The notes beneath the pieces are model-generated. The model was not told the origin of the DNA and made no database searches. It worked only from the letters and a program-made list of their open reading frames with translations. DNA of 64,000 nucleotides from Bacteroides sp. Marseille-P3684 (GTDB taxonomy: Bacteria; Bacteroidota; Bacteroidia; Bacteroidales; Bacteroidaceae): positions 405,564 to 469,563 of the forward strand of contig NZ_LT985808.1 of NCBI RefSeq assembly GCF_900291465.1. Direction: 5' to 3'. Both the position numbers and the translations under genes were made by a program. This document shows, one piece after another, positions 12,335 through 54,301 of the stretch; within the stretch, counting starts at the first letter, position 1; each line of letters begins with the position of its first letter.

Positions 12335-12439
12335 AAAACAGCTGTTTTTCATGCGCGAAACAATATTGTTTCGCATGTCAAACACTTGTGTTTGGCTCGT
12401 CAAACAATATTGTTTGGCGGGTGAAACAATATTGTTTCA
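12335..12439. repeat. Array of five palindromes with about 22-bp period
   Basis: Five perfect or near-perfect palindromes follow one another: AAAACAGCTGTTTT (12335-12348), GCGAAACAATATTGTTTCGC (12355-12374), CAAACACTTGTGTTTG (12379-12394, centre TT unpaired), CAAACAATATTGTTTG (12401-12416) and TGAAACAATATTGTTTCA (12422-12439). Their centres are 23, 22, 22 and 22 bp apart. All share AAACA...TGTTT arms. Such phasing places each site on about the same face of the DNA, as in arrays bound by a cooperating dimeric protein. Confidence 0.8.
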
Positions 12440-33223: not shown

Positions 33224-33471
33224 GAGGATTCGTCTTTGGCTTTATTCAGGTTTCTTTACCGTACAACACAAAAAAGGACAGGATTCATGAATCGCAGGGG
33301 TGAATTATAACATTCTTTCACATTCAAGCATCCGTTTATCGACAAGGGCGGTCCCTGTCACCCCGACATTCCCCTACAAGGCAGCCGCCTTAATAATAAT
33401 AGGCGTAGACTTGCACAACCCGATTTTCTTGCTGAACTTAGCCGACGGAAACACACAAACACGAGTAACTT

Positions 33472-34878
33472 ATGGAACTGAAAAAACTCCTCTGCTGCAT
33501 CCTCCTCACCGTGGGATGCACCCTCCCGGGGTATGCACAAGACCAACCCTGGACACGCTATGCCGACGTGGAAGCCGGCATCGAACAACCCTCCTTCCCT
33601 GAACGCAACTTCCTCATCACGGACTTCGGAGCACGGCCGGACGACTCGCTCGCACTCTGCCACGAAGCCATCGACCGTGCCATCCTCGCCTGCTCGCTCG
33701 CCGGAGGAGGACACGTCGTCGTACCCCAGGGGACGTTCTACACGGGACCCATTACTCTCAAGAGCAACGTCGACCTGCACCTGGAGAAGGGTGCCTGCCT
33801 GAAGTTCTCGACCGACAAGGCGCTCTACACTCCCACCGTCCTCACGCGCTGGGAGGGCGTGGACTGCTACAACCTGCGTCCGCTCATCTATGCCCGCGGG
33901 GAGACCAACCTCGCCATCACCGGACAGGGCACCATCGACGGACAGGCGGACAACGACAGCTGGTGGCACATGTGTGGCAACGCTGAACGCTTCGGCTGGC
34001 GCGAAGGGATGATCAGCGCCGCCCGGGGCGGACGCGAACGCCTGCTGGGCTTCGGCGAGACACAGACGCCCGTTGCCCTGCGGCAGATGACGCTGGAGGA
34101 CGGGCTGCGTCCGCAACTCATCAACCTCTGCCACTGCACGCGTGTGCTCATCGAGGGCGTCAGCCTGCGCAACTCGCCCTTCTGGGTCATCCACCCGCTC
34201 TTCTGCGAGGACCTCACCGTGCGCGGCGTCGACATCTTCAGCCACGGACCGAACAGCGACGGCTGCGACCCCGAGTCGTGCAACGACGTGCTCATCGAGG
34301 ACTGCCGTTTCGACACGGGCGACGACTGCATCGCCATCAAGAGCGGGCGCAACATGGACGGACGGCGCTGGGACACGCCCAGCAGCAACATCATCGTCCG
34401 CCGCTGTGAGATGAAGGACGGCCACGGGGGCGTGGTCATCGGAAGCGAGATTTCCGGCGGATGCCGCAACGTCTATGTCGAGGATTGCCGCATGGACAGC
34501 CCGAACCTGGACCGCGTCATCCGCATCAAGACGAACAACTGCCGCGGCGGTGTCGTCGACGGGGTCTACGTACGCCGGGTGGACGTCGGGCAGTGTCGCG
34601 AGGCGGTGCTGAAAATCAACCTGCTCTACGAGAGCGGCGAGGACTGCGACCGCAGCTATCCGCCCTATGTGCGCAACGTCATGCTCGACCACGTGACAAG
34701 TGGCAAGAGCCAGTACGGGGTACTCATCACGGGCTATGACGACCGCATGAACATCGAGAACGTGAGCGTGACCAACAGCTCGTTCGACGGGGTGGAACGG
34801 AAGCCGCTGAGCATCCAGGGAGCAAAGGGGCTGCACTTCGACAACTTCCGCATCAACGGAAAGGCGGTCGACAACTGA
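33472..34878 (+). CDS. GH28 polygalacturonase
   Basis: The 468-aa secreted enzyme (signal MELKKLLCCILLTVGCTLPGYA) hydrolyses alpha-1,4 galacturonan or rhamnogalacturonan. All GH28 motifs are visible: GPNSDGCDPES (NTDG-like, catalytic Asp), DTGDDCIAIKSG (two catalytic Asp), KDGHGGVVIGSE (His) and RVIRIKTN (RIK, substrate carboxylate binding). Length fits exo- or rhamno-type Bacteroidetes members. It diverges from the FecR gene and complements the pectin esterase and PL10-CE8 genes as part of dispersed pectin-degrading capacity. Confidence 0.92.
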   Translation: MELKKLLCCILLTVGCTLPGYAQDQPWTRYADVEAGIEQPSFPERNFLITDFGARPDDSLALCHEAIDRAILACSLAGGGHVVVPQGTFYTGPITLKSNVDLHLEKGACLKFSTDKALYTPTVLTRWEGVDCYNLRPLIYARGETNLAITGQGTIDGQADNDSWWHMCGNAERFGWREGMISAARGGRERLLGFGETQTPVALRQMTLEDGLRPQLINLCHCTRVLIEGVSLRNSPFWVIHPLFCEDLTVRGVDIFSHGPNSDGCDPESCNDVLIEDCRFDTGDDCIAIKSGRNMDGRRWDTPSSNIIVRRCEMKDGHGGVVIGSEISGGCRNVYVEDCRMDSPNLDRVIRIKTNNCRGGVVDGVYVRRVDVGQCREAVLKINLLYESGEDCDRSYPPYVRNVMLDHVTSGKSQYGVLITGYDDRMNIENVSVTNSSFDGVERKPLSIQGAKGLHFDNFRINGKAVDN

Positions 34879-34951
34879 CGACGCTCCCGCACTGCCGGAC
34901 GTGCCTCCGTCTTTTTCCCAAGGACACGGAAGATGCAACAGAAGGCATTGA

Positions 34952-35076
34952 GAATTTTGTTTACAGTGCACTACCGACAGGTCGCTACCGTCGTACGGAC
35001 CTGTCCGCAGCGTGGTGCGGACGCGTCCGTACGAGCGTGGCGACGCGTCCGTACGACGGTACCGACCCATCCGCAG
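34952..35076 (+). repeat. Family-A 125-bp palindrome-rich repeat, copy 2
   Basis: Same length and orientation as copy 1 (22291-22415), differing at about ten positions and without gaps. Conserved limits are GAATTTTGTTTACA at the left and GACCCATCCGCAG at the right. Confidence 0.8.
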
Positions 35077-35991: not shown

Positions 35992-37692
35992 TTACCATTT
36001 ATGCTCGGGCGAAGTCGCGGTCGGAGCAACCGGAATGGGGTTCGGCTCGATGTTACTGTAGTTCGTCTGCGTCTGCGGGAAGCAGAGCGTCATCCAGTCG
36101 GGGTAGTTCGTGCCCTCGACCTTATTGTAGACGTCGGCGTTCCAGCGGTACAGCTCGATGTGGTTGGAGCCTGCATAGCTGCGGATGACCTGCTTGTCGA
36201 GCCGCTTGATGTCATAGAAAGCGAAGCCCTCGCCCCACAGCTCGACGCGGCGCTGCCACCAGACTTCGTTCTGGAACGGCTTGGCATACGTGCTGCCGTA
36301 GGTCTCGGCGCTGTGCTTGCCGTAGACGTACTGCGGGTCGCGCGTCTGGGCGAAGGCGGTGAGCAGCGCGATGCCGCGTGCCTCGTCCTGCATGCCGGCA
36401 GCCTCAGCCTCGATGAGCTTCATCTCCTCCACGCGCATCAGGGGGACGGCGACGGTGAACGCCTTGTACTGGTTGGCGTGCTCGCCGCCCTTCGGACGGA
36501 ACTTCAGCTCCAGACCGCCCACCGTGCCCGACGTGGTGGCTTCGGCGGTCGTCAGGATGCCTTCGGGGTCGTCGGTGTAGGCTTCCAGCTTCCTGAGGGC
36601 GCCCAGGGTGTCGCCGGCTGCCTTCTCAAAGCTCTCGGCGATGGCGAAGTCGATGAAGCCCTTCTTGCGGAAGTCGGTGGCAGGGATGGTCTCGAAGAGG
36701 TGACGGTCGATGCGCTTGGGCTGGCCGTAGTTGGCGGCATAGCCGCACTCTGACGGCGACACCTCGATAATCATCTGCGAGCCCCACGAGCCGTCGGCGT
36801 CGTTCTGGAGAATGTTGTCGTCGTTGTCCTTGAACGTGAGGGCGAACATCCATGCGCCGTTGGGTGTGTTGAAGCCGTCGGTGTGCGAGTTGAACACGTC
36901 CTCCGTCATCACGGTGTAGCCCTGCTGCGCCTTCCTGGCATAGTCCTCGGCCTCCTTCCACTTCTCCATCGTCAGGTAGGCACGCGCCTTCAGTCCGTAG
37001 ACCACGGAGAGGTCGGGTGTGTAGACGTTGGGACGCTTGTAGTCGGCGAGGTACTGCTCCGCCTTGTCAAGGTCTTCCAGGATTTTCCCCCACATCTGCT
37101 CGTTGGTCAGACGGGGTGTCGTCGGCAGCTCGGACAGCTGGGTGTCGTTGCTGACCCAGGGGACTGTCTGCGCGTTCGGGTCCTTGGCGTAGGACTTGGG
37201 CGCATACATCCGGGCGAGGTCCATGTAGAACATGGCACGCATGGCGTGGGCGATGCCGGCTCCGGAGCGGCGTTCAGCGGACGGCTCGTCGCCTGCCATC
37301 TCCAGCACGATGTTGCACGACTTGACCCACATGAAGTAGTAGGTCCAGGGCACCTGTGCCAGGGCGTACGACGGGCCCAGGCTGGTGCCGCATCCGTATT
37401 GGGTCACATACCAGTCCTGCTCTTCGAGGGTGATGTCCTGCCCCATGACGTCGCGCGAGAGGAAGAAGGAGGGATAACCGTAATCAATGGGCCACTGGGA
37501 TGCCGGCCTGTAGGCAAAAGAGCCTGCCAGCGAGTTGGTGATGGCGGCCACGAAGTTGTCATAGGAGCCTTCCGCCTCGTTCGCCTGGTCGAAGCTCGCC
37601 TTTCCGCCCTGGGGAACGATTTCCTTGATACATCCTGACAGGAGTACCGCTGCGGCGGCAGTGATGGAGAATATCTTTGCTATCTGTTTCAT
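35992..37692 (-). CDS. SusD-family lipoprotein (locus 2)
   Basis: The 566-aa lipoprotein (lipobox AVLLSGC) has SusD helices: MRAMFYMDLARMYAPKSY, DLSVVYGLKARAYLTMEKWKEAEDYARKA, MRVEEMKLIEAEAAG, and the C-terminal WWQRRVELWGEGFAFYDIKRLDK. It is longer than average and belongs to the subgroup ending with a P-N-P-N-x-P tail (IEPNPIPVAP). It follows SusC2 by 20 bp. No enzyme gene accompanies the pair, so the ligand cannot be inferred; expression would follow the invertible promoter upstream of SusC2. Confidence 0.92.
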   Translation of the reverse strand: MKQIAKIFSITAAAAVLLSGCIKEIVPQGGKASFDQANEAEGSYDNFVAAITNSLAGSFAYRPASQWPIDYGYPSFFLSRDVMGQDITLEEQDWYVTQYGCGTSLGPSYALAQVPWTYYFMWVKSCNIVLEMAGDEPSAERRSGAGIAHAMRAMFYMDLARMYAPKSYAKDPNAQTVPWVSNDTQLSELPTTPRLTNEQMWGKILEDLDKAEQYLADYKRPNVYTPDLSVVYGLKARAYLTMEKWKEAEDYARKAQQGYTVMTEDVFNSHTDGFNTPNGAWMFALTFKDNDDNILQNDADGSWGSQMIIEVSPSECGYAANYGQPKRIDRHLFETIPATDFRKKGFIDFAIAESFEKAAGDTLGALRKLEAYTDDPEGILTTAEATTSGTVGGLELKFRPKGGEHANQYKAFTVAVPLMRVEEMKLIEAEAAGMQDEARGIALLTAFAQTRDPQYVYGKHSAETYGSTYAKPFQNEVWWQRRVELWGEGFAFYDIKRLDKQVIRSYAGSNHIELYRWNADVYNKVEGTNYPDWMTLCFPQTQTNYSNIEPNPIPVAPTATSPEHKW

Positions 37693-37712: not shown

Positions 37713-40700
37713 TTAGAACGACAGTTGGATGCCACCCATGATGGTGCGCATGGGGGAATAGACGGTGAGTGCCTCGGTCTCGTCGTAGGCATAGCGCGGG
37801 TCAAGACCTTTGCGTGCCGACCAGAAGTAGAGGTTCTCGCCCGTGGCGTAGATGCGGAGCTTGTTCAGTCCCAGGCGGGCAACAACGCGTTGCGGCAGGG
37901 TGTAGCCCACGGAGAACGACTGGAAGTTGAGGTAGCGCGCGCTGGTCAGCCAGCGGTCGGAGTCTCCTCCCGTGTACTTGTCGCCGTAGTAGAGGCGCGG
38001 CAGTCCGGTCGTCTTGTTCTCGGGTGTCCAGGAGCGGAGCACGTCCTTGTGGAAGGCACGCCCGGCATCGCTCGCGGACGCGGTGTTCGACATCAGTTCC
38101 TGGTAAGCCGAGTCATAAATCTTGCCGCCGAGCTGGTAGTCGAACGAGAGCGAGAGGTCGAAGCCGTAGGCGGTGAGCTGTGTGCCGAATCCGCCGTAAG
38201 CGACCGGCATGCTGCGTCCCTGCGCATAGCGGGTGGCACTGTTGATGTCGGTGGTCGTCTCGTCCCGGTTGGTTCCCGGACGGTTGGTCACACCGGCACC
38301 CAGCTGGGAGTCGACGTAGTAGAGCGCCTCGCCCTTCTCGTTCACTCCGGCATACTCGGGAAGGAACTTGTTGTAGATGGGACCGCCCTCGACATACCAC
38401 AAGCCCTGTTCGATGAAGCCGCCGGTCAGCGCGGTCTTCGAGGCAGGGAGGCGGAGAATCTTGTCCTTGTTGTGTGCGATATTGAACGACAGGCTCCAGT
38501 CGACGTCCTTCGTGCGGACGGGAGAGCCGACAAGGCTCAGCTCGACACCTGAGTTGCGGATGTCACCGGCGTTGCCGTAGTAGCCGCGCGACCCAGCCGC
38601 CTCGGGGACGGAGAGCCAGAAGAGCAGGTCGGTCGTGGTCTTGTTGTAGTAGTCGAGGCTGCCGCTCAGGCGTCCGCTGAAGAGGGAGAACTCCAGACCG
38701 ATGTTGAGGTTCGTGGCGGTCTCCCAGGTAATCTCGGGATTACCGATGCGCCAGAACGTGGCTGACATCTGTGAGTCGGAGGCGGCAACGAGGTTGTACA
38801 TGTCGGTGAAGGCAAATTCTCTCATCGCCATCGTCCTTTCACCGATGTTGTCGTTGCCCTGCTGGCCGATGGAGAACTTCAGCTTCAGCTCGTCTACCCA
38901 GGGGGCGTGGAAGAATGCCTCCTTGTTAATCAGCCAGGCTGCACCCACCGACCAGAAGTCGCCCCAGCGCCGGTCCTTGGCAAAGCGTGAGGACGCATCG
39001 CGGCGGTAAGATGCCGAGGCGAAGTAACGGTCGTCGTAGTTGTACTGTACGCTTCCGAAGTAGCCTTCGACGTTGTACTCTTCCGTGTAGGAGGAGGCGT
39101 CCGCCTTCTTGGCTGCGGCATCGAGCTCGGGGATTGCCTCGGAGAAGAGTCCCATGCCGTAGGCGGAGAGCCAGGTGGTCTTGCGGTCGTAGTATTCGTG
39201 ACCGAGCAGGGCGTTCACGTTGTGCTTGCCGAAGCGGTCGAAGTAGGTGAGCGTCTGCACATGATTCTGCTCGATGATTTCCTTCGCCTTCTTCTCAATT
39301 TGTCCGTTGACCGAAACCTTGGGACCGTAGAGTCCGCTCTGCAGCTCCGAGTCCTTCCGGTTGCTCCAGTCGAGGGTGCTGGTCGCGTTGAACTTCAGGA
39401 AGTCGGTCAGGGTGACGTCCGCCATGAAGGTGCCGTTCAGCTTGTTGAGCCGTTTCTTGTAGTCGTTGTAACGGTTTGCGCCCAGGGGGTTTCCCGGCGA
39501 GAGGAAGGGACGCGACAGTCCCGGATAGTTGGTGGCTGCCACGCCGTAGTCATACTGCGGGTTGCCGTGGCTGTCGGTGCGCACCTGCGGATTGCCGTCC
39601 GCGTCGAGCACCCGGACGTAGATGGGGTAGATGGGCGCGATGAGCGACGTGTAGTACATCAGGTTGGTGTTGTTCCACGCGGTGGCGCTGAGGTTCGGGT
39701 TCGACCGGGTGGTCGAGTTGGTATAGCCCACGTTGGCGGTGAGCTTGAGCCACGACTTCGCCTGGTAGTCCGCCTTGAAGCGGGCGGCAAGACGCTTGTA
39801 GCCCGAAAATTCGATCATGCCGTCCTCGTCGAGGTAGTTCATGTTCGCATAGAAGGAGCCTTTGTCCATCGCTCCCGATGCGCTGACGTTGTACTCCTGA
39901 CGGAAGGCGGTGTGGTAGGCAGCGTCGCGCCAGTTGTCGTTCGTCAGGTAGTAGGTCTCTCCGTTCGCCTGATAGGAACGGCCCAGCGTGGCGTGCGGGT
40001 TCAGCTTGCCGTCGGCGCCGATGAGCAGCTCTCCGTCGGGCACGGTGTAGATGTTGTAGCCCAAGTGGTTGAGCACGTACTTGTTCGCCTTCTGGTTTGC
40101 CTCTGCCGGAGTAGACCCACGGTCGGTGAAGTAGCCGTAGTACTGTCCGTAGAAGGTCTCGTAGTAGAGCCCCGGGTCGGAGATGGTCTCATAGTCCTGC
40201 ACCGAGCGGGTGTTGGCACCCCACTTCATGTCGACATTGATTTGGGCGACCTTGTTCTTGCCGGTCTTTGTCGTGACGATGATGACACCGGAGGCACCGC
40301 GCGCACCGTAGAGGGCAGCGGAAGCCGCATCCTTGAGGACGGTCACCGACTCGATGTCCTCCTGCGGGATGTTGTTCAGCGAGGCGCTGTAGGGTGCCCC
40401 GTCGACGATGATGAGGGGCTTGGTCTCCGAGTAGAGCGAGGAGACGCCGCGGATCTGGAGCTTGGTGTCTTCCGACCCGCCCGGCGTGCCCATGCCGCCG
40501 CGCAGCTGGAGTCCCGGCGTACTGCCCACGAGGGCATTGGTCACGTCGGTCGTCACGTGCTTCGACAGTTCTTCCGAACCGAGCACGGCTGCCGACCCGG
40601 TGAACGACGACTTCTTCTGTGTACCGAAAGCGACGACCATCACTTCATCAAGCTGCTTGGTGTCTGCCTTCAGTTCCACACGGATGAGTCCCTGACGGAT

Positions 40701-40955
40701 GGCGACCTCTTGCGTCTGCATGCCGATGAAGGACACTAACAAGGTTTTGGCTGAATGGGGCACGTTTGCCACTGTGAACTTGCCATCGATATTGGTGACG
40801 GCACCCAGTCGTGTGCCTTTGACCAATACGGACGCTCCCACTACCGGCTGACCATCGTCCGCGGAAACCACTGTTCCCGTCACTGTGGTCTGAGCCAAAG
40901 CTACGCCTACGCTGAGGAACACGCAGACGAGCCACAGAAAGAATCTTCTCTTCAT
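37713..40955 (-). CDS. SusC-family TonB-dependent transporter (locus 2)
   Basis: The 1080-aa outer-membrane importer has a signal peptide (MKRRFFLWLVCVFLSVGVALA), a CarboxypepD_reg-like domain (about 22-100, VTGTVVSADDGQPVVGASVLVKGT), a TonB-box-like/plug region (ELKADTKQLDEVMVVAFGTQ, IPQEDIESVTVLKDAASAALYGARGASGVIIVTTK) and a barrel ending MGGIQLSF. Unlike locus 1 it has no STN domain, so it is not tied to FecR signalling. ATG at 40953-40955 is preceded by a good ribosome site (AAAGGAGAG); a 19-codon upstream extension is ignored. Upstream lies a 147-bp segment bounded by inverted 17-19-bp sites with its only promoter pointing away from the gene. Confidence 0.92.
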   Translation of the reverse strand: MKRRFFLWLVCVFLSVGVALAQTTVTGTVVSADDGQPVVGASVLVKGTRLGAVTNIDGKFTVANVPHSAKTLLVSFIGMQTQEVAIRQGLIRVELKADTKQLDEVMVVAFGTQKKSSFTGSAAVLGSEELSKHVTTDVTNALVGSTPGLQLRGGMGTPGGSEDTKLQIRGVSSLYSETKPLIIVDGAPYSASLNNIPQEDIESVTVLKDAASAALYGARGASGVIIVTTKTGKNKVAQINVDMKWGANTRSVQDYETISDPGLYYETFYGQYYGYFTDRGSTPAEANQKANKYVLNHLGYNIYTVPDGELLIGADGKLNPHATLGRSYQANGETYYLTNDNWRDAAYHTAFRQEYNVSASGAMDKGSFYANMNYLDEDGMIEFSGYKRLAARFKADYQAKSWLKLTANVGYTNSTTRSNPNLSATAWNNTNLMYYTSLIAPIYPIYVRVLDADGNPQVRTDSHGNPQYDYGVAATNYPGLSRPFLSPGNPLGANRYNDYKKRLNKLNGTFMADVTLTDFLKFNATSTLDWSNRKDSELQSGLYGPKVSVNGQIEKKAKEIIEQNHVQTLTYFDRFGKHNVNALLGHEYYDRKTTWLSAYGMGLFSEAIPELDAAAKKADASSYTEEYNVEGYFGSVQYNYDDRYFASASYRRDASSRFAKDRRWGDFWSVGAAWLINKEAFFHAPWVDELKLKFSIGQQGNDNIGERTMAMREFAFTDMYNLVAASDSQMSATFWRIGNPEITWETATNLNIGLEFSLFSGRLSGSLDYYNKTTTDLLFWLSVPEAAGSRGYYGNAGDIRNSGVELSLVGSPVRTKDVDWSLSFNIAHNKDKILRLPASKTALTGGFIEQGLWYVEGGPIYNKFLPEYAGVNEKGEALYYVDSQLGAGVTNRPGTNRDETTTDINSATRYAQGRSMPVAYGGFGTQLTAYGFDLSLSFDYQLGGKIYDSAYQELMSNTASASDAGRAFHKDVLRSWTPENKTTGLPRLYYGDKYTGGDSDRWLTSARYLNFQSFSVGYTLPQRVVARLGLNKLRIYATGENLYFWSARKGLDPRYAYDETEALTVYSPMRTIMGGIQLSF

Positions 40956-41009
40956 ATAATCTCTCCTTTGCTTTGGTGAAACTGTAATATTATAAGGTCT
41001 CTCTATATG

Positions 41010-41028
41010 CATCTCTACGTAAGAGATG
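41010..41028 (+). repeat. Left inverted site of putative invertible promoter
   Basis: CATCTCTACGTAAGAGATG: two 7-bp inverted arms (CATCTCT / AGAGATG) around an asymmetric 5-bp core ACGTA, the layout of a site-specific recombinase crossover site. Seventeen bases (41012-41028) recur exactly in reverse at 41176-41192. Confidence 0.75.
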
Positions 41029-41132
41029 AATTTGATAACAATAACAGTGGTTTAGGTTTCGAATCGTAGAAGAAAAGGGGGTTGATACTTCATAAATTTC
41101 AGGATTGTGCTCTAAATTCTTTAGGCTTATTA

Positions 41133-41163
41133 CTTGCTTTTCTGATATTATTGCATACTTTTG
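41133..41163 (+). promoter_or_regulatory. Promoter inside the putative invertible segment (currently facing away from susC2)
   Basis: CTTG (41133-41136), 19-bp spacer, TACTTTTG (41156-41163). The -7 box fits TAnnTTTG perfectly and lies 12 bp from the right inverted site. No plus-strand gene follows; inversion would aim it at susC2. Confidence 0.6.
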
Positions 41164-41175
41164 CAACCATTAGTG

Positions 41176-41194
41176 CATCTCTTACGTAGAGAGG
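41176..41194 (-). repeat. Right inverted site of putative invertible promoter
   Basis: CATCTCTTACGTAGAGAGG: reverse complement of the left site over 17 bases, with core TACGT (the reverse of ACGTA). Confidence 0.75.
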
Positions 41195-41343
41195 GACACC
41201 CGTTGCATAAGCTTTCTCCCTTATATACAAGTTCCTTTGTACCAAACAGATTAACATCCTTTTGCGTCCGTTGCAGGGACATGCCCGGACGTCATATTGT
41301 ATAAATATGCAGTTTCAGACGGATGCGCGACGTCCGGATACAT

Positions 41344-41371
41344 AAAAGGGCGGCCGCGTGGGTCGCCCTTA
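41344..41371 (-). terminator. Terminator of nadB
   Basis: Minus strand: AAGGGCG ... CGCCCTTTT hairpin with a T run, 24 bp after the nadB stop. Confidence 0.75.
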
Positions 41372-41394
41372 TACTATTCCGTAGAAGGCTATGC

Positions 41395-42978
41395 TCAATG
41401 CTCCGTGTTGGCAGGATGCGGATAGTCGAGCGTGAAGTGCAGTCCCCGGCTTTCCTTCCTCTCCATCGCCTGACGGGTGATGAGGTAGCCCACATTGATC
41501 ATGTTGCGTAGTTCACACAGCTCGCGCGATGCCTTGCTGTGCTTGAAGAGGCGTTCGGTCTCCTCATAGAGGATGTCGAGGCGGTTCCATGCCCGTGTCA
41601 GGCGGACGTTGCTGCGCACGATGCCTACGTATGCCTCCATAATCTGGTTCACCTCTTTGGCGCTCTGCGTGATGAGGACTCGTTCCTCGGTCGAGATAGT
41701 GCCCTCATCGTTCCACTCGGGCACGTCCTCGTTGAAGTCGTAACGGTCGACGACTTCGAGCGAATGGCGGGCAGCCGCGTCGGCATAGACCACCGCCTCG
41801 ATGAGTGAGTTCGACGCCAGGCGATTGCCTCCGTGCAGCCCCGTGCATGAGCATTCGCCCAGGGCGTACAGGCGACGGATGCTCGACTGTCCGTCAAGGT
41901 CGACCACGATGCCTCCGCAGAGGTAGTGCGCCGCCGGAGCCACGGGGATGTAGTCGCGCGTAATGTCGATGCCCAGGCTCAGACACTTCTGATAGATGTT
42001 GGGGAAGTGTCGCTTGGTCTCTTCGGGGTCTTTGTGCGTCACGTCGAGGTAGACGTGGTCCTCGCCTCGCTGCTTCATCTCGTTGTCGATGGCACGTGCC
42101 ACGATGTCGCGCGGGGCAAGCGAGAGGCGTTCGTCGTACTTCTGCATGAACTCCTTCCCGTCCAGCGTGCGGAGTACGCCGCCGTAGCCGCGCATTGCCT
42201 CGGTAATGAGGAAGCAGGGACGGTCGCCCGGATGAAAGAGCGCGGTGGGGTGGAACTGGATGAATTCCATATTCTTCACAGCTCCCTTGGCACGGTAGAC
42301 CATGGCGATGCCGTCGCCCGTCGCCACGAGCGGGTTCGTGGTGTTACGGTAGACCGCCTCGCAGCCTCCCGTCGCCATGACGGTGATGCGCGACAGGAAG
42401 GTATCGACACGCCCCGTGTCCTCATTGAGCACATAGGCGCCGAAGCAACGTATGCCCGGCGTATAGCGCGTGACGATGATGCCCAGGTGATGTTGCGTAA
42501 TGATTTCCACCGCGAAGTGGTGGTTGAAGATGTGTATGTTCGGCTGACGCTTGATGGCTTCGATCAGGCTGGTCTGTATCTCAGCGCCAGTGTTGTCCTT
42601 GTGGTGGAGGATGCGGAACTCCGAGTGTCCGCCTTCGCGATGCAGGTCAAAGCCACCGTCCTCGTTCCGGTCGAAGTCGACGCCCCAGCGGATAAGCTCC
42701 TTGATTTGCGACGGGGCGCGGCGCACCACCATCTCTACGGCAGCGCGGTCGTTGATCCAGTCGCCCGCCACCAGGGTATCGTGTATATGCTTTTCAAAGT
42801 TGTCCACTTGGAGATTGGTGACAGAGGCAATCCCCCCTTGTGCAAAATACGTATTGGCCTCTTCCAGCTCCGTCTTGCAGATAATGGCGACGGACTTGCC
42901 CTGTTCGGCCACTTTGAGGGCAAAGCTCATGCCTGCGATGCCCGAACCGATAACTAGGTAATCGTATTGATGAATCAT
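41395..42978 (-). CDS. nadB: L-aspartate oxidase
   Basis: The 527-aa flavoenzyme oxidises aspartate to iminoaspartate, the first step of NAD synthesis. Motifs: N-terminal YLVIGSGIAGMSFALKVAEQG (FAD), ANTYFAQGGIASV, DTLVAGDWINDRAAVEMVV, HREGGHSEFRILHHKDNTG, PTALFHPGDR, AAHYLCGGIVVDLDGQSSI and LYALGECSCTGLHGGNRLASNSLIEAVVYA. The Met chosen is the fifth codon after an alternative ATG at 42993; a -7 box at 43004-43011 leaves almost no leader for the earlier one. No nadA/nadC is adjacent. It is a single-gene unit with its own terminator. Confidence 0.93.
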   Translation of the reverse strand: MIHQYDYLVIGSGIAGMSFALKVAEQGKSVAIICKTELEEANTYFAQGGIASVTNLQVDNFEKHIHDTLVAGDWINDRAAVEMVVRRAPSQIKELIRWGVDFDRNEDGGFDLHREGGHSEFRILHHKDNTGAEIQTSLIEAIKRQPNIHIFNHHFAVEIITQHHLGIIVTRYTPGIRCFGAYVLNEDTGRVDTFLSRITVMATGGCEAVYRNTTNPLVATGDGIAMVYRAKGAVKNMEFIQFHPTALFHPGDRPCFLITEAMRGYGGVLRTLDGKEFMQKYDERLSLAPRDIVARAIDNEMKQRGEDHVYLDVTHKDPEETKRHFPNIYQKCLSLGIDITRDYIPVAPAAHYLCGGIVVDLDGQSSIRRLYALGECSCTGLHGGNRLASNSLIEAVVYADAAARHSLEVVDRYDFNEDVPEWNDEGTISTEERVLITQSAKEVNQIMEAYVGIVRSNVRLTRAWNRLDILYEETERLFKHSKASRELCELRNMINVGYLITRQAMERKESRGLHFTLDYPHPANTEH

Positions 42979-43003
42979 GGCAGTTTGTTGCATTTATTGG
43001 GTG

Positions 43004-53218: not shown

Positions 53219-54151
53219 ATGAAACGAAAAGTGATTGGAATCGGAGAAACGATTCTCGACATATTGTTCCGCGACGGACAGCCCACGGCGGCGGTGCCGG
53301 GCGGCTCGGTGTTCAACGGCATCATCTCGCTGGGGCGCATGGGGGTCCCCGTGGACTTCATCAGTGAGACGGGCAACGACCGTGTGGGGCGCACGATTCT
53401 CGACTTCATGCGTGCCAACGGCGTGGAGACGTCGCACGTCAACGTGTTCCCCGAGGGCAAGTCGCCCCTGTCGCTCGCCTTCCTCGACGAGCACAACGAC
53501 GCGGACTACCTCTTCTACAAGGACTATCCGTCACAGCGGCTCGACGTCGTCTTCCCGGAGATAGCCCCGGACGACATCGTGATGTTCGGCTCCTACTTCG
53601 CGCTCAACCCCGTGCTGCGTCCGAAGGTGCTGGAGTTCCTGACGTACGCCCGGGAGCACGGCGCACTGCTCTACTACGACGTCAACTTCCGCTCGACCCA
53701 CGCCTCCGACGCCATCAAGCTGACGTCGACCATCCTGGAGAACTTCGAGCTGGCAGACATCGTCCGTGGGTCGACAGACGACTTCCGCCACATGTTCGGC
53801 ATCACGGACGCGGACCGCATCTACACGGACAAGGTGAAGTTCTACTGCCCGCGGCTCATCTGCACCTCCGGTCCGGAAGCCGTGACACTGCACAGCGAGC
53901 AGGTCAACAAGACCTACCCCGTGCCTCCCGTCGAGACGGTGAGCACCGTGGGCGCAGGCGACAACTTCAATGCCGGCATCGTCTACGGCCTGCTGAGCGA
54001 GGGCATCCGGCGCGATGATCTGCCCCGCCTGACCGAGTCAGACTGGGATGCCGTCATCCGCAGCGGCATGGACTTCTCTGCCGAGGCGTGCCGCAACCTG
54101 GGCAACTCCGTCTCCCTGGATTTTGCAAAACAATTGACAATTGACAAGTGA
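53219..54151 (+). CDS. PfkB-family sugar kinase
   Basis: The 310-aa kinase has the ribokinase fold: IGETILDILFRDG, PGGSVFNGIISLGRMGVPVDFISETGNDRVG (substrate-binding N-terminal part), and the C-terminal ATP/catalytic signature TVGAGDNFNAGIVYGLL with the base Asp. It resembles fructokinase-like members but the sugar is uncertain. The last residues (KQLTIDK) are encoded by the left terminal repeat of the element at 54131-54301, so the C-terminus appears reshaped by that element. Confidence 0.85.
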   Translation: MKRKVIGIGETILDILFRDGQPTAAVPGGSVFNGIISLGRMGVPVDFISETGNDRVGRTILDFMRANGVETSHVNVFPEGKSPLSLAFLDEHNDADYLFYKDYPSQRLDVVFPEIAPDDIVMFGSYFALNPVLRPKVLEFLTYAREHGALLYYDVNFRSTHASDAIKLTSTILENFELADIVRGSTDDFRHMFGITDADRIYTDKVKFYCPRLICTSGPEAVTLHSEQVNKTYPVPPVETVSTVGAGDNFNAGIVYGLLSEGIRRDDLPRLTESDWDAVIRSGMDFSAEACRNLGNSVSLDFAKQLTIDK

Positions 54152-54301
54152 CAATTGACAATTACCGTCCGGCGTTGGACGAAGAGGAGACCGACTCAGC
54201 TGTAGCTTAAGTCCCTCTAAAAATTACCGCCTTGTGGGACTCATGCCCAACAAGGCGGTAACTATTAATTGTCAATTGTCCATTGTCAATTGTCAATTAA
54301 A
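54131..54301. repeat. 171-bp element with 33-bp inverted ends built from TTGACAA units
   Basis: The left end (AATTGACAATTGACAAGTGACAATTGACAATTA, in short ATTGACA units, 54132-54164) and the right end (54268-54300) are inverted copies differing at two bases. Inside is a 12-bp perfect hairpin TTACCGCCTTGT / ACAAGGCGGTAA (54224-54261). It lies between convergent genes and could act as a two-way terminator; the long ends are MITE-like. Confidence 0.65.

Follow-up and report, generated by a model that had tools for sequence, protein, structure and literature searches.

A putative phase-variable invertible promoter, sequenced in the OFF orientation, ahead of a SusCD operon in Bacteroides sp. Marseille-P3684

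The susC2 locus

The window (the whole 64-kb stretch of DNA analysed here) contains on its − strand susC2 (37713–40955), which encodes a SusC/RagA TonB-linked outer-membrane transporter according to TIGR04056 (762 bits), Pfam and the RagA and SusC structures, and susD2 (35992–37692, − strand; PF14322 and PF07980), which encodes a SusD-like lipoprotein and is the second gene of the candidate switched operon. The listed susC2 ORF opens at an ATG at 41012, inside the left recombination site described below, but the start is likely at 40955 instead, as suggested by a purine-rich AAGGAGAG ahead of it and a signal-peptide-like beginning of the protein. Downstream of the pair, a 570-aa ORF at 33358–35070 (− strand) has no Pfam, NCBIfam or PDB sequence match and is perhaps the third gene of the switched operon. 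On the other side lies nadB (41395–42993, − strand; L-aspartate oxidase, NF006567 above cut-off), whose 3′ end converges on the element. A weak terminator-like hairpin 3′ of nadB (41343–41373, − strand; z −1.4), missed by the terminator scan, is only suggestive of a point at which the nadB transcript may end, insulating susC2 from read-through.

Between the two genes are two 19-bp sites in inverted orientation. The left site (41010–41028, + strand) reads CATCTCT-ACGTA-AGAGATG with its core at 41017–41021, and the right site (41176–41194, + strand) reads CATCTCT-TACGT-AGAGAGG with its core at 41183–41187. Positions 41012–41028 and 41176–41192 are perfect inverted copies over 17 bp and are spaced by a 147-bp interior (41029–41175), so that the whole element measures 185 bp from site to site (41010–41194). 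Each site is nearly palindromic in itself around an asymmetric 5-bp core, and the outer arm of the right site is degenerate (AGAGAGG). The initial annotation had described two such sites, inverted over 17 bases around a 5-bp asymmetric core, and its positions and sequences are correct. Among perfect inverted repeats with a loop of 40–600 bp in the 64-kb window, the 17-bp pair is the longest; in 40 first-order Markov sequences of equal length the longest such repeat was 14 bp, and none of the 40 reached 17 bp. A chance origin of the repeat is thus excluded.

The interior carries a Bacteroidota-type promoter, recognised by its match to the consensus, at 41133–41163 (+ strand), with a −33 element CTTG (41133–41136) and a −7 element TACTTTTG (41156–41163) separated by a 19-nt spacer. 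The interval from susC2 to nadB has a single TAnnTTTG box, TACTTTTG, which lies 12 nt from the right site and is directed away from susC2 (OFF); none in this interval faces susC2. Since the 3′ end of nadB faces the element, the promoter as now oriented has no + strand gene to drive. Inverting the interior in silico moves the −7 box to 41048–41041 on the − strand, facing susC2. Our re-scan therefore reproduced both the single outward promoter 12 bp from the right site and the OFF orientation that had been claimed, the promoter pointing toward susC2 only after the in-silico inversion. A sigma70-like match facing susC2 (41017–40989) was rejected; it does not rise above chance level, and Bacteroidota are not expected to use this type. 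The locus hence has the arrangement of a Bacteroidales invertible promoter: one promoter lies between short inverted repeats, to which we assign the role of recombination sites from the sister elements described below, and it sits at one end of a segment whose inversion would switch a downstream surface gene.

A family of sister elements

We scanned GTDB genomes for two ATCTCT-N5-AGAGA sites 140–170 bp apart, leaving the core unconstrained, and obtained at least 124 distinct pairs among the matches listed, a count that includes the window and a second element of the same genome; the arms of the left susC2 site are common to all of these pairs. The listed records are nearly all Bacteroidales, with a few MAGs labelled Clostridium; one Sumerlaeia match among them fails the core test. 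The class is nearly absent from viral contigs, which gave 0, 0 and 1 matches for three spacing ranges.

Although the search used the arms only, the two cores are exactly reverse-complementary in 120 of the 124 pairs among the matches listed. These 120 pairs are in part near-copies and so not all independent, and their cores span at least 40 sequences. An outward TAnnTTTG box lies 9–15 nt inside one site in 106 of the 120 listed pairs and at both ends in none, whereas shuffled interiors gave a mean of 1.4 outward boxes and a maximum of 5. The core rule bears on the reading of the repeats as operators, foldback structures or a chance palindrome, in which the promoter would serve an antisense or small RNA. 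The near-palindromic form of each site is indeed what operators look like. Yet operators need no rule by which an asymmetric, locus-specific core is matched by its reverse complement in 120 of 124 listed pairs, the Markov sequences exclude chance, and the arms recur elsewhere in the genome and at more than 100 other places, so the repeat is not merely a local palindrome. Together with the flipped segments seen directly in sister elements (below), this makes the operator reading highly improbable.

Among the matches listed, the genes that face the elements include 24 UpxY antiterminators and 8 SusC genes (window included). The elements listed ahead of UpxY genes are 3 ON, 19 OFF and 2 unclear, and those ahead of SusC genes 2 ON, 5 OFF and 1 unclear; in L174, for example, the promoter faces a SusC gene. 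One element (L159, 5872–6066) lies between two divergent SusC genes, where an inversion would select one of the two transporters instead of switching between ON and OFF.

Inverted orientations in relatives

We compared orientation for all elements with alignable flanks, and found 80 flank comparisons collinear and two pairs inverted. The first pair comprises two loci of one Muribaculum MAG (L153 and L167), whose left flanks are 97.6% identical over 800 bp and end in the same left site; past this common site the interiors run in opposite directions. In the second, two loci of one Bacteroidaceae MAG (L142 and L191), both flanks are collinear and the interior is reversed between the sites. The breakpoints fall in the sites in both inverted pairs, with the caveat that these are paralogous loci in MAG assemblies. 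In other genomes, then, segments equivalent to the 147-bp interior are seen in opposite orientations between collinear flanks, and relatives include elements in the ON as well as the OFF orientation. A further candidate flip (L097/L100) proved collinear and was rejected, and the near-identical pMMCAT plasmids revealed no flip, 7 of 7 being in one orientation.

At the susC2 locus itself, a DNA search of 14 congeners found no ortholog of 40700–41394, and a SusC2 protein search of congeners found none of the same locus. Within the genus, SusC2 is closest to a homolog in L261 (43%), which lacks repeats and has an ordinary TAGTTTTG box about 60 nt ahead of it; it is therefore uninformative on flipping.

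Taken together, the core rule in 120 of 124 listed pairs, the conserved promoter geometry and the flipped sister segments bear out the initial annotation in its reading of the locus as an invertible promoter. The susC2 copy would flip as well; this step, the enzyme responsible and the effect on transcription are inferred.

A second element in the same genome

The initial annotation had proposed a search for the susC2-type site elsewhere in the genome. We ran it over the 3.7-Mb genome and found one other inverted pair, at contig 1: 2,768,308–2,768,503, with the sites CATCTCT-TATGA-AGAGATG and CATCTCT-TCATA-AGAGAAG 158 bp apart; the arms are as at susC2 and the core is different. A TATATTTG box lies 12 nt inside the right site, and this promoter too is directed away from the downstream gene (OFF). 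That gene is UpxY-antiterminator-like (NF033644, 72 bits against a curated cut-off of 100) and belongs to a polysaccharide (capsule/EPS) locus; beyond it are flippase-like and acyltransferase-like ORFs, named by reading their sequences.

A candidate recombinase encoded in trans

Eight Phage_integrase (tyrosine recombinase) matches and one Resolvase match are present in the genome. The single PF00239 match is a 646-aa large serine recombinase, and no small Mpi-type serine invertase was found in the genome. One of the tyrosine recombinases, a 402-aa protein with Arm-DNA-bind_5, SAM-like and Phage_integrase domains, is encoded by an orphan gene at contig 1: 1,044,596–1,045,804 that adjoins neither element. 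The gene is separated from the susC2 element by about 0.6 Mb and from the capsule element by 1.7 Mb, and its product would therefore act in trans on both.

We used seven of the genome's tyrosine recombinases as queries against ORFs in the neighbourhood of the elements. Of the first 80 GTDB loci, about two dozen yielded a relative of the 402-aa protein and only one a relative of any of the other six; where a relative of the 402-aa protein is present, its ORF mostly ends within a few hundred bases of the element. In a phylogenetic tree the 402-aa protein falls into a clade (support 100/97) with 31 of 32 element-adjacent recombinases, although the tree set was partly collected via the sites, which favours this result. 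Residues R252, K278, Y347, R350, H373 and Y382 of the catalytic region are invariant or nearly so in the clade. The closest plasmid homolog (57% identical) is directly followed by two pairs with TCTCT-N5-AGAGATG arms.

For homologs retrieved by their protein sequence alone, the picture was more varied: many lack an xTCTCTn5AGAGAx pair within 1.5 kb or show another repeat. Under loose scoring, four (L230, L232, L237 and L250) have the class or one of its forms, and four others (L236, L238, L241 and L249) a visible variant repeat, indicating that site specificity drifts within the clade.

By its place in this clade, the 402-aa protein is a candidate for the cognate tyrosine recombinase expected in the genome of a Tsr-type promoter, and it is the probable enzyme for flipping the susC2 element. 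With nine recombinase matches in the genome, another enzyme could act instead, whether XerC/XerD, an integrase-like tyrosine recombinase or the large serine recombinase. The other types tested do not, however, lie beside elements of this site class in the first 80 loci, bar one case, and the serine enzyme, at 646 aa, is not a small Mpi-type invertase, so we regard action by another recombinase as unlikely. Rather less likely still is an element that is an invertible promoter by origin and is now locked OFF, with no recombinase in the strain acting on it. The lack of an adjacent recombinase, the degenerate outer arm of the right site and the OFF state of the second element would all fit a locked element, and a defective local recombinase is known at an invertible promoter in P. 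vulgatus (PMC13114119). Against this, the two sites keep a perfect 17-bp match across inner arms and core, relatives' sites also show outer-arm degeneracy, and the genome encodes an intact recombinase of the matching clade. The initial annotation had found no recombinase gene in the window and expected one elsewhere, and this fits a matching-clade enzyme about 0.6 Mb away with none adjacent.

Comparison with known systems

It is established that Bacteroidales carry invertible regions at SusC and capsule genes (PMC10939037, PMC8375218). In B. fragilis, Tsr19 inverts two promoters, one for an EPS and a distant one for outer-membrane proteins; the polysaccharide promoter is mostly OFF in culture (PMC4747536). 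The arrangement that we propose for the present genome is like that of Tsr19 (PMC4747536), with one tyrosine recombinase acting on two distant promoters, one for polysaccharide and one for an outer-membrane protein. Unlike the 402-aa gene, which adjoins neither element, the Tsr19 gene adjoins one of its promoters, and we liken the two systems by arrangement and not by orthology of repeat or protein.

Tyrosine-invertase capsule promoters have been described in B. thetaiotaomicron, B. xylanisolvens and P. distasonis (PMC12118408), and they have in common with the present class a promoter enclosed by short inverted repeats that are internally palindromic, a UpxY/NusG-type first gene and a neighbouring tyrosine integrase. 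Their repeats (GTTACTTCTTAGGTAACGGA, CCGTTACCTAAGAAGTAAC and GCTACTYRGNRAGTAGC) differ from ATCTCT-N5-AGAGAT. The Mpi serine invertase acts on capsule promoters with the repeats GTTCGTTTAA / ARACGTTCGTN (PMC8375218) and is likewise a global invertase over several segments of similar size (183–186 bp in B. intestinalis). The Mpi repeat is different from the present one, however: the sites here, CATCTCT-N5-AGAGATG, are not related to ARACGTTCGTN or GTTCGTTTAA, and the only PF00239 match, at 646 aa, is not a small serine invertase like that of the Mpi system. Bacteroidales mobile elements, including the plasmid pMMCAT, carry invertible promoters that have local invertases and drive resistance or glycan genes (PMC8748976). 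pMMCAT resembles the present class in that a 49%-identical recombinase lies beside two inverted-repeat pairs and a UpxY gene, and differs in its TTTCTC/GAGAAA-like arms and in the local position of its recombinase. A text search for the arm sequence gave no relevant literature match, and the class may already stand in PhaseFinder tables.

By its sequence, the susC2 element is very probably a real invertible promoter of a known kind, in the OFF orientation.

Proposed switch and its implications

We consider it very likely that 41010–41194 is a phase-variable, single-outlet invertible promoter in the OFF state, with the 402-aa recombinase as the probable enzyme acting in trans. The tyrosine recombinase would bind the CATCTCT/AGAGATG arms, and strand exchange within the locus-specific 5-bp core would invert the 147-bp interior. 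As sequenced, the single promoter points into the 3′ end of nadB, with susC2–susD2 OFF; in the other state transcription would start about 80 nt upstream of the susC2 ATG (ON). The same 402-aa protein would act in trans on both the susC2 element and the capsule/EPS element.

Such a specific switch would decide whether one among many SusCD importers is displayed. The analysis names a probable switching enzyme, and it finds the site class ahead of a capsule-type locus in this genome as well as in many gut Bacteroidales. Now that the arms and the core rule are defined, sequence is enough to find further elements of the class and to assign them to a recombinase clade, and coupled switching of nutrient uptake and capsule becomes testable.

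More broadly, and with slightly less than even confidence in the whole, we suggest that ATCTCT-N5-AGAGAT may be a widespread Bacteroidales site class whose arms are read by one tyrosine invertase clade, whose varying 5-bp core prevents cross-recombination and whose element lengths are set by helical phase, and that here one orphan invertase acting in trans may couple the ON/OFF states of a SusCD importer and a capsule/EPS locus.

Element lengths and neighbouring genes

Site-to-site lengths of the elements cluster at about 183, 193–195 and 204–205 bp, with none at 198–201 bp. The period is about 10.5–11 bp (Rayleigh p ~1e-13, 92 dereplicated entries, L108–L226), for a search range of about 176–206 bp and with relatedness only roughly removed, and it suggests helical phasing of the synapse. 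The susC2 element, at 185 bp, is slightly off the length peak.

Phocaeicola massiliensis and P. faecalis contain many near-identical elements with the common core TAGTA/TACTA (L108, L110, L158, L176, L177, L207 and L219), each of which precedes a 165-aa protein without assigned function (MDYLFLHRDKRTFTSERQ...); in P. vulgatus, a gene similar to that of the 165-aa protein lies behind its two elements. Genes of one recurring type (LSRYSFSGHESFQCK... and MTLNEYIDCL...) adjoin or enclose the elements L182, L217 and L148; they resemble components of another system, possibly one for defence or restriction.

Other perfect inverted repeats in the window, at 54132/54283, 12357/12423 and 22325/22385, are AT-repeat or hairpin structures without the geometry of the susC2 element. 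The region 54130–54298, between two genes, holds a 33–38-bp inverted repeat of AATTGACA units around about 100 bp and is probably a repetitive intergenic element outside the class studied here, and 12336–12437 is a short stretch with repeated AAACAATATTGTTT palindromes.
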